Shown here: positions 3,541-63,323 of the stretch, piece by piece
Position numbering within the stretch: the first letter of the stretch is position 1
How the letters are laid out: each line of letters begins with the position of its first letter
Source: Gluconobacter aidae
GTDB taxonomy: Bacteria; Pseudomonadota; Alphaproteobacteria; Acetobacterales; Acetobacteraceae
Length of the DNA stretch: 64,000 nucleotides
NCBI RefSeq assembly: GCF_009547075.1
Contig: NZ_WIPH01000003.1
Location: 124,001-188,000, forward strand
Reading direction: 5' to 3'
The notes under the pieces: generated by a model
What the model saw: only the letters and a program-made list of their open reading frames with translations
What the model was told of the DNA's origin: nothing
Database searches by the model: none
Translations under genes and position numbers: made by a program

Positions 3541-4725
<1,185 letters not shown>

Positions 4726-4754
4726 GTCTCAACCGGTAATCTGGCAGAAAACCC

Positions 4755-5450
4755 CTGGTCGAGTCTCTCAAACCCCAGCCGGAGCGGCTTTATGGCCGCC
4801 AGCGCGGCCATCCGCTCCGGGCCCGGCAGCAGCACCTTCTTGAGAAGGCGCTGCCCCGGCTTTCCTTCACTTCACCGGAAAATCCCGCCGCGGGATTCTC
4901 CGATGCGGTTTCGCGTGTCTTTCTCGAAATCGGTTTTGGCGGCGGCGAACATGCCATCGGCCAGTCCGAACTGAACCCGGATGTCGGCTATATCGCCTCC
5001 GAGGTCTTCGAGAACGGCCTGTGCTCCCTGCTGTCGCGCCTTGTGCCTGAAGGTGAGGAAGACACGGCCACGCCGCCTCCCCATTTCCGCATCTGGGCCG
5101 AAGATGCCCGCCTGCTGCTCAAGGACATGCCCGATGCGTGTCTGGACCGGGCGTATCTGATGTTCCCGGACCCGTGGCCCAAGGCCCGGCATGCCAAACG
5201 CCGCTTCGTGCATCCGGAAAACATCAAGCAGATGCACCGCGTCCTGAAACCCGGCGCCATCTGGCGCGTCGCCAGTGACCATCCCGTCTACCAGGAATGG
5301 GTCACGGAGGTGATGGGCAAACAGGACCTGTTCGATGCGCCGCCCCCGGCCAAGGAACGTCCGGATGGCTGGTCGCCCACACGCTATGAGGCCAAGGCCT
5401 TCCGCGAAGGGCGCGTGCCGTTCTACTGGACTTTCACGCGCCGCCCCTGA
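4755..5450 (+). CDS. trmB: tRNA (guanine-N7-)-methyltransferase; start codon unresolved
   Basis: TrmB methylates G46 of tRNA using SAM. The family pattern is clear: RLYGRQRGHPLRPGQ at the N terminus, the SAM-binding EIGFGGGEH motif, YLMFPDPWPKARHAKRR, and SPTRYEAKAFREGR near the end. The frame is blocked by a stop at 4737-4739, and between it and the conserved RLYGR codons (from 4785) there is no ATG, GTG or TTG. The first canonical start in frame is GTG at 5043, which would remove the SAM-binding motif. CTG at 4755 is the only near-canonical start, so I use it tentatively. A sequencing error or frameshift near 4740-4780 is also possible. Confidence 0.85.
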   Translation: MVESLKPQPERLYGRQRGHPLRARQQHLLEKALPRLSFTSPENPAAGFSDAVSRVFLEIGFGGGEHAIGQSELNPDVGYIASEVFENGLCSLLSRLVPEGEEDTATPPPHFRIWAEDARLLLKDMPDACLDRAYLMFPDPWPKARHAKRRFVHPENIKQMHRVLKPGAIWRVASDHPVYQEWVTEVMGKQDLFDAPPPAKERPDGWSPTRYEAKAFREGRVPFYWTFTRRP

Positions 5451-5489
5451 ACTCTCCAATCCCGTTATCACAGCGAGTGTCCTGACATC

Positions 5490-7130
5490 ATGACCCAGAT
5501 CGAACGCGAAGAAATGGAATTCGATGTCGTGGTGGTCGGTGGCGGTCCCGCCGGTCTGTCCGCCGCGATCCGCCTGAAGCAGCTCGCGCCGGACGCGGGC
5601 GTCTGCCTGATCGAGAAAGGTAGCGAGATCGGGGCGCATATCGTCTCGGGCGCGGTGATCGAACCGCGCAGTCTCGACGAGCTTCTGCCGAACTGGCGGG
5701 ATCTGGGTGCGCCGCTGCGGACGCAGGTTACGGAAGAGCGGATGCTGTTCCTAACCGAAACGCGCTCCTTCGCCGTTCCGTATCTGGACCGCGTGATGCC
5801 GCAGATGGCCAATCACGGGAACTATGTCGTCTCGCTCGGCGAAGTCTGCCGCTGGCTCGGCGAGCAGGCCGAAGCCCTTGGCGTGGAAATCTATCCGGGC
5901 TTCTCGGGCGCGGAACTGTTCATCGAGGACAACCGCGTTGCCGGCGTCGTCACGGGTGACATGGGCATCGAACGCAACGGCGAGCACGGGCCGAACTTCA
6001 CGCCCGGCATGATCCTGCGGGCAAAGCAGACCATCCTGACCGAAGGCGCGCGCGGCTCCCTGACCGGCCATGCCATGAAGCGTTTCGGGCTGCGCAAGGG
6101 CATTGATCCGCAGACCTATGGCCTCGGCGTCAAGGAAGTCTGGGAAATCCCGGCGGAAAAGCACCGTCCCGGCCTCGTGCAGCATAGTTTCGGCTGGCCG
6201 CTTGATGACCATACCTATGGTGGTGCCTGGCTCTATCATTTCGGGGAAAATCTGGTCAGCTTCGGCTTCGTGACCGGCCTCGATTACGCCAACACCTATC
6301 TCTCCCCGTTCGAAGAAATGCAGCGCACCAAGCTGCACCCGGCCTTCCTGGAGCACTTCGAAGGCGGCAAGCGCCTGATCTACGGCGCGCGCGCCCTGTC
6401 CGAAGGCGGATTCCAGTCCATTCCGCGCCTGACCTTCCCCGGCGGCGTTCTGGCTGGTGACTCGGCGGGCTTCCTTAACGTGCCCAAGATCAAGGGCACA
6501 CATACGGCCATGAAATCCGGCATGATCGCGGCTGAGGCCGTGGCCGAGGCTCTGGAAAAGGATAGGAAAGAAGCCGCCAGCATGACGGCGCGCGTCCAGC
6601 AGTCCTGGCTGTGGTCCGAACTGCGCGACGTCCGCAACATCCGCCCGGCTTTCGCGAAATGGGGCATGAAGCTCGGCGCGATTTATGCGGGCATCGACAG
6701 CATGATCCTGCGCGGCCGTGCGCCCTGGACGCTGCATCACCCACATGCCGATAACGAGACGCTGCGTCCCGCTTCGGTGTGCACGAAAATCGATTATCCC
6801 AAGCCCGACGGGAAGATCACCTTCGATCGCGTCAGCTCGGTCTTTCTGAGCGGAACAAACCATGAGGAAAACCAGCCGGTTCACCTTAAGCTCCGCAACG
6901 AGGCCATCTGGCGCACCGTCAATCATGACGTGTTCGATTCGCCGGAGAGCCGCTACTGCCCGGCTGGTGTGTATGAACAGGAACAGAAGGGCGAAAACGC
7001 CTGGCAGCTTCGGATCAACGCCCAGAACTGCGTGCACTGCAAGACCTGCGACATCAAGGACCCGACACAGAATATCGACTGGTGCACGCCCGAAGGTGGC
7101 GGCGGTCCGAACTATCCGGTCGGGATGTAA
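5490..7130 (+). CDS. Electron transfer flavoprotein-ubiquinone oxidoreductase
   Basis: This 546-residue protein passes electrons from reduced ETF to ubiquinone at the inner membrane. It starts with the FAD motif VVVGGGPAGLSAAIRL, contains GDSAGFLNVPKIKGTHTAMKSGM, and ends with a ferredoxin-like domain holding the 4Fe-4S cysteines (YCPAGVY, CVHCKTCDIKDPTQNIDWC). Length and domain order match complete ETF-QO. It is followed by etfB and etfA on the same strand, forming a compact ETF module. No acyl-CoA or other donor dehydrogenase is next to it, so the electron source cannot be read from this window. Confidence 0.95.
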   Translation: MTQIEREEMEFDVVVVGGGPAGLSAAIRLKQLAPDAGVCLIEKGSEIGAHIVSGAVIEPRSLDELLPNWRDLGAPLRTQVTEERMLFLTETRSFAVPYLDRVMPQMANHGNYVVSLGEVCRWLGEQAEALGVEIYPGFSGAELFIEDNRVAGVVTGDMGIERNGEHGPNFTPGMILRAKQTILTEGARGSLTGHAMKRFGLRKGIDPQTYGLGVKEVWEIPAEKHRPGLVQHSFGWPLDDHTYGGAWLYHFGENLVSFGFVTGLDYANTYLSPFEEMQRTKLHPAFLEHFEGGKRLIYGARALSEGGFQSIPRLTFPGGVLAGDSAGFLNVPKIKGTHTAMKSGMIAAEAVAEALEKDRKEAASMTARVQQSWLWSELRDVRNIRPAFAKWGMKLGAIYAGIDSMILRGRAPWTLHHPHADNETLRPASVCTKIDYPKPDGKITFDRVSSVFLSGTNHEENQPVHLKLRNEAIWRTVNHDVFDSPESRYCPAGVYEQEQKGENAWQLRINAQNCVHCKTCDIKDPTQNIDWCTPEGGGGPNYPVGM

Positions 7131-59875: not shown

Positions 59876-60592
59876 ATGACCGTTCCATCAAACCTGCCTG
59901 ATCCGGAATACCGTCGCCTCTTTCCCCAACTGGCCAGCTACGGCGCCGGCCCATTCGGGGAGGATGTCGATACATTCGGCGACACCCTGATGGACGTCAT
60001 TCAGGACGTGACGGAAACCCGAACGTTCCTCACCCGGGCCGCCGCCATCCGCGAACTCGAAACCCTGCTGGCCTGTAACGAGACCGATCTGGCCCGGATC
60101 ACATGGGCTCTGATCGCCTTCGATCCGCTCGCCCGGTTCAATGAACCGGCTCCGTTTCCCAGCCTGAGCCACTTCTGGACAGCCCTGTTACGAAACCTCG
60201 AAACCGGGCCACCGCCATGGCCGGATACTGCAAGGCGCCAGCTCGGGGGCTGCGTTATGGAGCGGCATATCGCCCCGACAGAAGCCGACATCAAAGCGCG
60301 GTTTGCCGACGAAAAGCTCCGGTCCGTCTCCTTCTTCCAGACAAAGGAAAACGCAGAGCATGCCATTCTCCAGACGCTTCAGAGCAACGCGGACGCAATC
60401 GACGCATGGCTTGCCGAAACGCCTGACGGCATGCGCGAGAGCTTCGAGCAGGATTTTCCCGAAGGCGTCGGCATCGTCATCACGGAACAGGATCGCCGCC
60501 CGACACCCGGCAAAACACTGTCCGTCACCCTGACCAAGCGCGAACTCCGTGGAATGGCCTATTACATTGAGACCATCAGGATCTACGCCTAA
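59876..60592 (+). CDS. Protein with immunity-like N-terminal and RNase A-like C-terminal regions
   Basis: This 238-residue protein has no signal peptide. Residues about 10-110 (FPQLASYGAGPFGEDVDTFGD..., AAIRELETLLA, then a long helical part ending in SLSHFWTALLRNLE) resemble the CdiI_3-type immunity proteins of contact-dependent inhibition. Residues about 124-238 (RHIAPTEADIKAR, SVSFFQTKENAEHAIL, NADAIDAWLA, IVITEQDRRP, LSVTLTKRELRGMAYYIETIRIY) resemble the bacterial RNase A-like toxin fold, with His131, Arg149 and Thr233 at positions where that family has catalytic residues; the usual Tyr two residues after the Thr reads Arg here. Both matches are from memory of the family patterns. No transporter or CdiA is nearby. 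Confidence 0.55.
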   Translation: MTVPSNLPDPEYRRLFPQLASYGAGPFGEDVDTFGDTLMDVIQDVTETRTFLTRAAAIRELETLLACNETDLARITWALIAFDPLARFNEPAPFPSLSHFWTALLRNLETGPPPWPDTARRQLGGCVMERHIAPTEADIKARFADEKLRSVSFFQTKENAEHAILQTLQSNADAIDAWLAETPDGMRESFEQDFPEGVGIVITEQDRRPTPGKTLSVTLTKRELRGMAYYIETIRIYA

Positions 60593-60620
60593 AAAAGGGG
60601 AGCAGACCGCTCCCCCCCTT
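60591..60620 (-). terminator. Intrinsic terminator after the YncE-type gene
   Basis: On the minus strand GGGGAGC and GCTCCCC around GGTCT are followed by a T6 run, a few bases after the beta-propeller gene stop. The stem also overlaps the stop codon of the plus-strand gene. Confidence 0.85.
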
Positions 60621-60627
60621 TCAGACC

Positions 60628-61866
60628 TTACCGCAGAATGCCCGTATGCCCGACGCTGTAGCGTCCCGGCTGCGGCCAGACCGTCAGGCCATGCGGCTCC
60701 GCACCGACCGGGATCTTGTGCATCGCACCCGTATCGGTGTCGATCGCATAGACCACATCATCGAACCGGCCCGACAGCCAGAGCAGCTTGCCGTCCGCGC
60801 TGACATTGCCCATGTCCGGGCTACCGCCACCGGGGATCATCCAGGTCTTGACGACCTTGTCCGTCGCAAAGTCGATGACCGACACGCCACCCGGCCCATG
60901 CTTCGGACCATGAATGCGATGTGAGCCACGATTGGCGACATACATCAGCTTGCCATCACGGCTCGGATACAGGCCATGCGTGCCGATACCCGTCGGGATG
61001 AAGCCGGTCTCCTTGAAGGAATCCCCGTCCACGACGAACACACCGTCCGCCATCATGTCCGCCACATAGAACTTGTGACCGTCCGGCGCCGTCAGGATGT
61101 CCTGTGGCATGCCACCTTTGGACAGCTTCAGCATCCCGATCATCTTCAGGTTCACCGTATCGACCTTGGCGACATAACCGCCGAACTCGCAGGTGAAGAT
61201 CGCGTATTTGCCGTCAATGGAAAAATCAGCGTGATTGACGCCCTTGCATGCCGGCGTCTCGACCGAGCCCTTCAGCTCCATCGTATGCGGATCGCGGAAA
61301 TCCAGACGCTTGTGCGCCTCCGCCACCGTAATCGCGTATTTTCCGTCCGGCGTGAAATACATGTTGTACGGATCATCCACGGCAATGGACGGACCGGGCT
61401 TGGCCGTCGCCGGATTGATCGGCGTGAGCGACCCGTCCGGACGGCCTTCGCTGTTATTCGTCACCCACAGCGTCCGCAGATCCCAGGACGGCACCACATG
61501 CTGCGGCGAATGCCCGACCGGGAACGTGTCCACAACCTGAAAAGACGCCGGATCAATAACGGATACGCTGTCCCCACGCAGGTTCGGCACATAGACGCGG
61601 GCCGGATCATGCGCGATCGCCGGCGAGATATGGGACGGAGTCGTCTCGCTGTAGATGTTCTTCGGGTCGATGACCGGCGGCATGCCCGGGATCGTCTGGA
61701 TACCGGACGCGGCCACAGGCGCCGTTGCGGCGACAGGAACGGACGCATCGGCCGGAACCGGCACCATCGGCGCACTCGGGGAATAGTCCTGCGCATGGGC
61801 CGCGGCAGCTCCCAAGGTAGTTCCCAGCAGCGTCATCGCCACCAGAAGAGGAGTCTTGAAAGTCAT
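60628..61866 (-). CDS. Exported YncE-type beta-propeller protein
   Basis: This 412-residue protein has a signal peptide (MTLLGTTLGAAAAHAQ) and repeated blades with VYVPNLRGDSVSVIDPASFQVVDTFPVGHSPQHVVPS, YNMYFTPDGKYAITVAEA, HKFYVADMMADGVFVVD, and KLLWLSGRFDDVVYAIDT, typical of YVTN/YncE propellers of six or seven blades. Such proteins are often periplasmic and some bind DNA or partner with quinoproteins. The start overlaps the stop of the creatininase-like gene by four bases, so the two are translated together. Confidence 0.85.
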   Translation of the reverse strand: MTFKTPLLVAMTLLGTTLGAAAAHAQDYSPSAPMVPVPADASVPVAATAPVAASGIQTIPGMPPVIDPKNIYSETTPSHISPAIAHDPARVYVPNLRGDSVSVIDPASFQVVDTFPVGHSPQHVVPSWDLRTLWVTNNSEGRPDGSLTPINPATAKPGPSIAVDDPYNMYFTPDGKYAITVAEAHKRLDFRDPHTMELKGSVETPACKGVNHADFSIDGKYAIFTCEFGGYVAKVDTVNLKMIGMLKLSKGGMPQDILTAPDGHKFYVADMMADGVFVVDGDSFKETGFIPTGIGTHGLYPSRDGKLMYVANRGSHRIHGPKHGPGGVSVIDFATDKVVKTWMIPGGGSPDMGNVSADGKLLWLSGRFDDVVYAIDTDTGAMHKIPVGAEPHGLTVWPQPGRYSVGHTGILR

Positions 61867-62720
61867 GGATGGCTCCTTTGGAAAGACTGGATTGCCGCAA
61901 CCGCGGTCCGGATCTGCATCTCCGTGCCGATCCTGCCGAGCCCGGCCGATGCGCGCCGCGGATCGCCACCATAGACGCCATCGGCCGCACCCGGTTTCGG
62001 AGCCTTGCGCAACGCCTCCTGACGCACAAGCGACGGATCGACCGCCAGCATCAGCGACGTATCGCTCAGCTCCGCATGAAGCCCCACCTCAGCCCCATGC
62101 CCCTGCGCACGGAGGGCCTCGGCATACTGGTGGGGAACGACTTCATAGTAATCGCGCAGATAAAGCACGGCTGCCTGACCTTTCCAGGCCCGGTTCAGCT
62201 CCTGCGCCACCTGCGCCATGAAAGACTGGTATCCGCCATGATCGCCCAGCAGCACGATCCGCCGGAAACCCTGAACGCGGAAACTCTCCGCCGCCCCTTT
62301 GAGCAGCCCTTCGAACACGGCAGGCGGCACGGAAATCGTGCCCGGAAACCTCATGTGAGACGTGCGCGGACTCGTCGATCCCTCCGGCACATAGGCCACA
62401 ACGGGGGCCACCAGCATATGCCCGGCCTGAACCGCGATCGTATCGGCCAGAACCTGCGCCCGCACATTATGCTTGCCGACCGCCATGTAAGGGCCGCTCT
62501 GCTCGGTTCCGCCCACGGGAATGATGACGGTATCCGTCCCCGCCTTCACATCCTGCGCCACCTCGGTCCAGCTCCGGCACGCGAATTCGGACTGAAGCGC
62601 CAGACCGCTGCAATGCGCGCCTTCGCCGGCGGTGCTCTGCGCCTGTGCGAACCCCGCAGACAGCCCCACCCCCGCGCAGAACAGGACAGAACGACAGGAC
62701 AGGCGAAGCAGGTTGAACAT
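61863..62720 (-). CDS. Exported creatininase-family protein with altered metal motifs
   Basis: This 285-residue protein has a signal peptide (MFNLLRLSCRSVLFCAGVGLSAGFAQAQ) and the creatininase fold: IPVGGTEQSGPYMAVGKH (the usual EQHG reads EQSG at residues 73-76, and the usual GTD reads GKH), LLGDHGGYQSFMAQVAQELN, and HAELSDTSLML near the end. The family includes creatininase, hydantoin-like hydrolases and MftE-type peptidases. Several metal ligands are replaced, so activity is uncertain. The signal peptide is unusual for this normally cytoplasmic family. It overlaps the YncE gene by four bases. Confidence 0.75.
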   Translation of the reverse strand: MFNLLRLSCRSVLFCAGVGLSAGFAQAQSTAGEGAHCSGLALQSEFACRSWTEVAQDVKAGTDTVIIPVGGTEQSGPYMAVGKHNVRAQVLADTIAVQAGHMLVAPVVAYVPEGSTSPRTSHMRFPGTISVPPAVFEGLLKGAAESFRVQGFRRIVLLGDHGGYQSFMAQVAQELNRAWKGQAAVLYLRDYYEVVPHQYAEALRAQGHGAEVGLHAELSDTSLMLAVDPSLVRQEALRKAPKPGAADGVYGGDPRRASAGLGRIGTEMQIRTAVAAIQSFQRSHP

Positions 62721-62825: not shown

Positions 62826-63323
62826 ATGCCTTTCCCGATTTCCTACGATCCCGATCCCGTCGACAGCGCCGCCCACCTGATCCAGGTCGCGCTCACCCCC
62901 GTTTTCATGCTGTCGGGCATCGGCACCCTCATCAACGTATTCAACACACGGCTGGCCCGCGTCGCCGATCATCTCGAAGACGTGCGCAAGAAACTCGGTA
63001 GCCCGAAAACGGACGACACCCCGGTCGATCCCATCGACAGCCCCGAACGCCTCAAAACCCAGCAGACCCGCCTGCACCGCCGCGTCTTCGTTCTGGATGC
63101 CGCGATTCTCCTCAACGCCATCGGCGGTGCCTCAACCTGCGGTGCGGCCATGGCGCTGTTTGTCGGCTCGATCCGGGACGCTTCGACATCAGCATGGCTG
63201 CTCGCACTTTTCGGCATAGCTCTCGCCTGCACGGTCGGATCGCTGATGTTCTTCCTCGCCGACACCCTGCTGAGCTGGCACGGACTGCGTCGCGACACCG
63301 ATCTGAGCCTCGACGCGGAATAG
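62826..63323 (+). CDS. DUF2721-family membrane protein
   Basis: This 165-residue protein has three membrane segments: PVFMLSGIGTLINVFNTRLARVADHLE (with the conserved TRLARVADR-like motif), a middle helix with LDAAILLNAIGGASTCGAAMALFV, and WLLALFGIALACTVGSLMFFLAD. This layout and motif match DUF2721 as I recall it. The function is unknown. Confidence 0.7.
   Translation: MPFPISYDPDPVDSAAHLIQVALTPVFMLSGIGTLINVFNTRLARVADHLEDVRKKLGSPKTDDTPVDPIDSPERLKTQQTRLHRRVFVLDAAILLNAIGGASTCGAAMALFVGSIRDASTSAWLLALFGIALACTVGSLMFFLADTLLSWHGLRRDTDLSLDAE

Follow-up and report, generated by a model that had tools for sequence, protein, structure and literature searches.

A tightly paired, exported creatininase-fold protein and seven-bladed propeller with remodelled active sites from acetic acid bacteria: a possible copper-linked periplasmic module

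Background

The metal ligands of the P. putida creatininase are Glu34, His36, Asp45, His120 and Glu122. For the related protein MftE, the passages on it in PMC10885120 and PMC3023750 contain no list of metal ligands. Among the seven-bladed propellers, thiocyanate dehydrogenase is described in PMC9456337 as holding three coppers in its central tunnel, and the N-terminal part of the YVTN protein Ybp from Asaia appears in the medium when made as a PhoA fusion, according to PMC4670117. Both folds are well known; a description of a module that pairs them was not found in open-licence PubMed Central full text (which leaves out subscription papers and preprints), where nothing turned up on the pairing, on a rebuilt creatininase metal site or on the function of the propeller. 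The main texts of four G. oxydans papers (PMC8602642, PMC12041372, PMC10727944, PMC11302035) likewise yielded nothing relevant to a creatininase or a YVTN/YncE propeller.

The pair described here comes from Gluconobacter aidae and lies in a stretch of 64,000 nucleotides (contig NZ_WIPH01000003.1, positions 124,001 to 188,000), referred to below as the window. Its closest named relatives belong to Gluconobacter species.

Results and discussion

Gene arrangement and export

The features of the locus, in window coordinates, are as follows.

61863..62720, minus strand: exported creatininase-fold protein of the paired clade, 285 aa, ATG start, with the motifs EQSG...GKH...GDHGG
60628..61866, minus strand: exported seven-bladed YncE-type propeller, 412 aa, ATG start
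61863..61866, minus strand: stop/start overlap of 4 bases (ATGA), common to both ORFs
60591..60621, minus strand: terminator-like hairpin, 13 pairs, U-rich 3' arm

The first-pass annotation, which was made from the letters of the window, had described two exported proteins sharing four bases, and both ORFs are indeed found on the minus strand with 61863-61866 in common. An identical ATGA junction is present at the Gluconobacter loci L002-L014. Translational coupling through this overlap is likely, and a two-gene operon is the best explanation of the arrangement. The hairpin (-20.7 kcal/mol, z -2.14, with 5 of 200 shuffles equally good) lies within and next to the 35-base gap between the end of the propeller gene and that of the convergent gene; it is absent from the list of a simple consensus terminator scan, and a promoter scan found none. 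The convergent gene (59876-60592) encodes a protein with a C-terminal bacterial CdiA-CT RNase A domain (PF18431) and a CdiI_2-like N-terminus that scores below threshold, and has matches in only part of the Gluconobacter relatives, in one of which it is shorter. The divergent gene upstream of the pair (62826-63323) encodes a DUF2721 protein and occupies the same place in many acetic acid bacteria.

Sec-type signal sequences, as judged by eye, are present at both N-termini (MFNLLRLSCRSVLFCAGVGLSAGFAQAQ and MTFKTPLLVAMTLLGTTLGAAAAHAQ). Over 70 aa, the fragment of Asaia Ybp printed in PMC4670117 aligns with the propeller at 63%, so that the PhoA fusion described in that paper supports export of a propeller orthologue; together with the signal-like N-terminus, it backs the earlier description of the propeller as exported.

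Distribution and co-inheritance

In the Acetobacteraceae that carry them, the two genes are inherited together. Among 249 genomes of this family, the creatininase is present in 49 (58 genomes have matches at E <= 1e-20, nine of them distant, at 38-42%) and the propeller in 48 of those 49 (52 genomes match at E <= 1e-30, four through paralogues of 31-35%, which leaves 48 orthologues). All 48 propeller-bearing genomes also carry the creatininase, and a single genome, G100, has the creatininase without the propeller. Both matches are located on one contig in 47 of the 48 genomes, at most ~0.6 kb apart as measured between alignment edges; in G267 and G287 the shared contig holds no more than the beginning of the propeller, and in G165 the genes are on different contigs. 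The neighbourhood survey that the first-pass annotation had proposed has thus been run, and its claim that the pair is conserved together, which it took separate inheritance to refute, stands with 48 of the 49 creatininase genomes.

The pair is also found in other classes and on plasmids. A strong propeller match occurs in three of the 385 genomes of a class sample, namely the source genome, G334 and G338, and in a phylum sample of 398 genomes the propeller is present in 11, nine of which also belong to the 14 that match the creatininase (E <= 1e-25). Two genomes of another family, G694 and G797, contain the propeller without the paired creatininase, in a synteny like that around the full pair of G897 (L193, L194). 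Thirteen creatininase regions were recovered outside the Acetobacteraceae: eight belong to the paired clade (L170-L177), each with a propeller downstream, and the other five (L178-L182) have none. In a quick tree, the 39 paired-type creatininases group together (SH-aLRT 94), one of them, L137 from G100, being without a propeller; 13 sequences with an EQNG motif (SH-aLRT 81) are placed next to this clade, and 23 canonical ones (99) apart from it. An orthologue of the propeller that resembles a lipoprotein is encoded on a plasmid of the actinomycete Embleya (L237, 6824-8023), where the 7 kb to each side contain no match to the creatininase.

ORF clustering over the neighbourhoods of the pair in acetic acid bacteria (44 loci, made up of the window, 40 regions and three others; L148 was dropped, having no creatininase on the contig) revealed no constant third gene. 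DUF2721 clustered in at least 15 loci of this set, all such cluster counts being lower bounds, with antisense ORFs picked in some loci. Taken together, the creatininase and the propeller are a genuine and closely paired exported module, whose folds are known and whose active sites have been remodelled.

The creatininase-fold protein

The first gene product belongs to the creatininase family, with a score of 144.7 bits to PF02633 (cut-off 31.3), and each of its 25 PDB matches at E <= 0.001 belongs to the creatininase family. Scores to the more specific profiles are below their cut-offs: 88.7 bits to TIGR04448, the creatinine amidohydrolase equivalog (cut-off 235), 61 bits to the MftE equivalog TIGR03964 (172) and 63 bits to NF041098, the IolN 3-dehydro-scyllo-inosose hydrolase (245). 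The EQSG and GKH motifs align with EQHG...NVD of the P. putida creatininase and with EQHG...D of canonical homologues; EQHG is present in 22 of the 23 sequences of a canonical control set, the pattern giving none for L217. In the alignment to the P. putida enzyme, Glu34 and His120 are kept as E73 and H161, and His36, Asp45 and Glu122 are replaced by Ser75, His84 and Gly163, respectively.

These features are shared by the whole clade. In 77 distinct creatininase sequences from paired loci, mostly of Acetobacteraceae with eight from other families, E73, H84, H161, H215 and D220 are each invariant (77/77), Ser75 is present in 76, with one Asn (L176, which has EQNG in place of EQSG), and G163 in 76, with one Ser. 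Given that the His of GKH is found in 77 and the Ser in 76 of the 77 sequences, EQSG/GKH is not a sequencing slip. Instead, the second metal site of the creatininases appears to have been lost from the paired clade in a coordinated remodelling, and the remaining first site may be a one-metal Glu-His-His triad formed by E73, H84 and H161. Complete loss of metal binding is not implied, because a possible ligand is kept at three of the five positions, and the five invariant residues would point to a working active site. The AlphaFold2 model of this protein has a mean pLDDT of 67.8 and a pTM of 0.71, with poorly predicted active-site loops. The PF02633 match and the alignments confirm the first-pass reading of a creatininase fold with EQSG and GKH motifs; the statement that several metal ligands are replaced holds for His36 and Glu122, which are lost, and for Asp45, which is His, and does not extend to total ligand loss, E73, H84 and H161 staying possible ligands.

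The propeller

The second gene product matches PF21783 (YNCE) with 68.8 bits (cut-off 27.1). Here too, the specific profiles score below their cut-offs, namely the YncE equivalog NF052280 (33.2 bits, cut-off 400), the PQQ-catabolism propeller TIGR03866 (96.4 bits, cut-off 287.3) and L-NosZ, NF052460 (79.7 bits, cut-off 700), the last match being partial with its best stretch at 171-315.

The inner-loop residues of the blades, assigned by reading the YVTN repeats, occupy the 'xG' of the PxG motif, which in the seven blades reads Q122-H123, Y167-N168, N211-H212, Q255-D256, H297-G298, D351-M352 and H392-G393. H123, N168, H212, D256, H297, D351 and M352 are each present in all 76 propeller sequences aligned, and H392 in 75, with one gap; E183, E227, M271, R313, R367 and the cysteine pair C207/C226 are likewise found in 76 of 76. 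The actinobacterial orthologue from Embleya, 49% identical, keeps H123, N168, H212, D256, H297, D351 and H392, and four paralogues at ~31% keep H123, H212, H297, D351 and H392, and not N168 and D256. To judge from the fold, the invariant His, Asp, Asn and Met residues of the inner loops would face the central channel.

The AlphaFold2 model of the propeller (mean pLDDT 79.4, pTM 0.80) has a good core. Among the matches listed in a VIA-align fold comparison, 1l0q is the best (Z 37.3). The list also has lactonases, with P. aeruginosa PpgL at Z 31.6, a selenium-binding protein, and the copper enzymes thiocyanate dehydrogenase (31.0) and nitrous oxide reductase (30.6), amid many near-equal seven-bladed propellers of other function. 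The NosZ profile TIGR04246 has no match in the source genome and eight matches over 76 class genomes, none of them above the model cut-off. An hhalign comparison of the propeller with seven of these eight (one with an internal stop was omitted) yields a probability of 2.2% and one local match of 96 columns.

Copper genes near the pair on plasmids

Plasmid records include 12 that match the propeller, 15 that match the creatininase and 10 that match both. Eight annotated records with both genes (H1-H7 and H9) were read; the stretches from R. jaguaris (H10) and Embleya (H11) are without annotation, and the match in Streptomyces (H12) is partial. Copper or copper-related genes are encoded within 9 kb of the pair in seven of the eight records, in three arrangements (pBVIE02 with pBN2; pBCEN1232; P. 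fungorum), and neither the four P. fungorum records nor pBVIE02 and pBN2 are mutually independent. In pBCEN1232, the pair adjoins genes for a heavy-metal sensor pair, a copper oxidase, CopC and CopD; pBN2 has a heavy-metal P-type ATPase, a multicopper oxidase and CueR nearby, and pBVIE02 is similar; the P. fungorum plasmids carry a cupredoxin and/or CopC/CopD, together with DUF305 and Nramp. In pOLGA1, no copper gene is present within 7 kb of the pair. In pBCEN1232 (191.9 kb), all 10 genes with copper, multicopper or heavy metal in their names lie in a single island at 53.3-67.4 kb, next to the pair at 50.8-52.8 kb; by our own estimate for this one plasmid, a random position would be this close to the island with a chance of ~1 in 10. 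Further efflux and two-component genes, whose names mention no metal, are located at 161-186 kb.

Burkholderia plasmids often bear metal islands, so the copper link may reflect hitch-hiking. A tblastn search with 16 proteins of the plasmid islands against the chromosomal pair loci retrieves only a generic response regulator and sensor kinase (L118, L176). As a clue, the copper neighbourhood is genuine but incomplete, and it may be due to hitch-hiking. The first-pass annotation foresaw neither this context nor the invariant centre of the propeller. Two further loci are of note: in G955, arsenic-type genes appear, by eye, to lie upstream of the pair, and a plasmid of Burkholderia contaminans (L244, 6001-6389) has a creatininase match, split and partial, next to genes for copper resistance, in a stretch that does not match the propeller.

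A possible copper-linked periplasmic module and the alternatives

The two genes, their co-inheritance and invariant residues, the copper genes beside them on some plasmids and the export of an orthologue are observed, and we consider them best compatible with an exported, metal-dependent, probably copper-linked periplasmic module (probability roughly 0.38). From the folds and the conserved positions we infer which residues face the channel, that a metal is bound and which one, the catalysis and the order of its steps. The propeller would be the core of the module, the mouth of its central channel probably lined by the invariant His, Asp, Asn and Met residues; this set most likely binds a metal, with copper favoured. 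Solved propellers of the same fold, thiocyanate dehydrogenase and nitrous oxide reductase, use the channel for copper chemistry. The creatininase-fold partner, its second metal site lost, might hold a single metal through Glu73, His84 and His161, and most likely hydrolyses a small molecule that the propeller uses or makes. Copper is the best-supported functional lead, though only moderately so. If the link is true, periplasmic copper homeostasis would gain a new component; otherwise, this is still a tightly paired exported system of industrial acetic acid bacteria.

More tentative is the broader proposal of a widespread periplasmic copper module, with a His/Asp/Asn channel site in the propeller and a one-metal (Glu-His-His) hydrolase, carried by acetic acid bacteria on their chromosomes and moved along with the plasmid copper-resistance islands of the Burkholderia group. 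The near-equal Z scores of propellers of other function, the hhalign probability of 2.2%, pOLGA1 and the chromosomal loci without island genes all count against the copper-linked reading as a whole, as does the propeller without a creatininase in G694, G797 and Embleya (7 kb searched on each side).

The sister creatininases with EQNG...GKH motifs offer a second handle on the chemistry, through their association with fatty-acid-hydroxylase-type enzymes. A gene of the FA_hydroxylase type (PF04116) is adjacent or fused in 9 of the 13 loci: downstream on the same strand in L139, L142, L143 and L145, upstream in L180, divergent in L140, L141 and L144, and fused in L178 (7639-9501). A Pfam check confirms PF04116 in three of the nine (L139, L178 and L180) and PF02633 in the same ORF of L178. 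Two of the four paralogous propellers, in which five inner-loop residues are kept, also adjoin such genes:

L198, 3612-4553 with 4563-6617: paralogous propeller and FA_hydroxylase-type gene side by side
L199, 4015-4974 with 5037-6125: paralogous propeller and FA_hydroxylase-type gene side by side

The same scans find this gene in none of the 23 canonical and none of the 39 paired-type loci, a zero that is valid for this subtype alone because both FA_hydroxylases of the source genome escaped the local HMM and motif scan, and that includes some control stretches with short flanks. These associations would fit an oxidise-then-hydrolyse scheme that is not specific to copper handling, in which the propeller, as an oxidoreductase or lyase, first converts a small compound of the periplasm and its creatininase-type partner then opens what is formed; in the sister systems, a membrane fatty-acid-hydroxylase-type enzyme would perform the first step. 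However, partners common to sister families are no proof of common chemistry, and with the gaps in the scan this scheme is possible, though we would not expect it to be right.

Under another alternative, the propeller is the sole working enzyme of the two, and the creatininase-type protein, acting without hydrolysis or as a processing factor, serves to load or mature it. Its appeal lies in the greater similarity of the propeller than of the creatininase in all 26 relatives L002-L027 (75-97% vs 58-93%, several propeller matches omitting the variable N-terminus), in propellers that stand alone and in the change of three of the five metal-site residues. Nevertheless, the five residues invariant in 77 of 77 creatininases point to a working active site, and one of the 49 genomes (G100) has the creatininase-type protein without a propeller, so that a maturation or chaperone role seems improbable.

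It is very unlikely that the propeller is a periplasmic gluconolactonase or another lactonase accompanied by an accessory hydrolase. The score to PF10282 (Lactonase) is above the cut-off of 21.7 in the protein search (25.6 bits) and the fold resembles that of PpgL, but the genome scan gives only 19.6 bits, a strong lactonase (367.7 bits) is encoded elsewhere in the source genome and many seven-bladed propellers give similar Z scores.

Quinoproteins abound in acetic acid bacteria, and the first-pass annotation had considered a link of the pair to the maturation or service of PQQ quinoproteins or to an MftE-like peptide cofactor system, in line with the sub-threshold scores to TIGR03866 and TIGR03964. 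Thirty-two genomes were searched: 29 carry the complete pair, two (G694, G797) have just the propeller and one (G100) just the creatininase. PqqE is above its cut-off in 24 of them, and seven of the eight others carry the complete pair (G095, G150, G206, G260, G796, G897, G955); the mycofactocin radical-SAM profile TIGR03962 exceeds its cut-off in 0 of 32, with two sub-threshold matches. With PqqE below its cut-off in 7 of the 29 pair genomes, although PQQ import is conceivable, with the mycofactocin radical-SAM protein over its cut-off in none of the 32 and without any constant third gene in the neighbourhoods, this link is unlikely and the least credible of all.

Comparison with known systems

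The creatininase-fold protein shares with the creatininase superfamily (PF02633; P. putida creatininase, 1j2t/1q3k; MftE; IolN) the fold, the general order of the motifs and the positions of Glu34 and His120. It differs in being exported, in forming a separate clade and in having Ser in place of His36, His in place of Asp45 and Gly in place of Glu122. Asaia Ybp is, going by its printed fragment, a probable orthologue of the propeller; in PMC4670117, just its N-terminal fragment was used, as a secretion signal, and no creatininase is mentioned.

With the YncE-type YVTN propellers (PF21783; E. coli YncE and the surface-layer protein 1l0q), the propeller has in common the seven YVTN blades, but in five of its blades the PxG glycine of the 1l0q repeats gives way to His, Asn, Asp or Met, and in the remaining two the x of the motif is His. 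The lactonase-type nitrous oxide reductase (L-NosZ, NF052460) shares part of its HMM with the propeller, far below the cut-off. With the copper-channel propellers, nitrous oxide reductase and thiocyanate dehydrogenase, the seven-bladed fold is common, whereas the inner loops here present a set of their own, four His together with Asp, Asn and Met.
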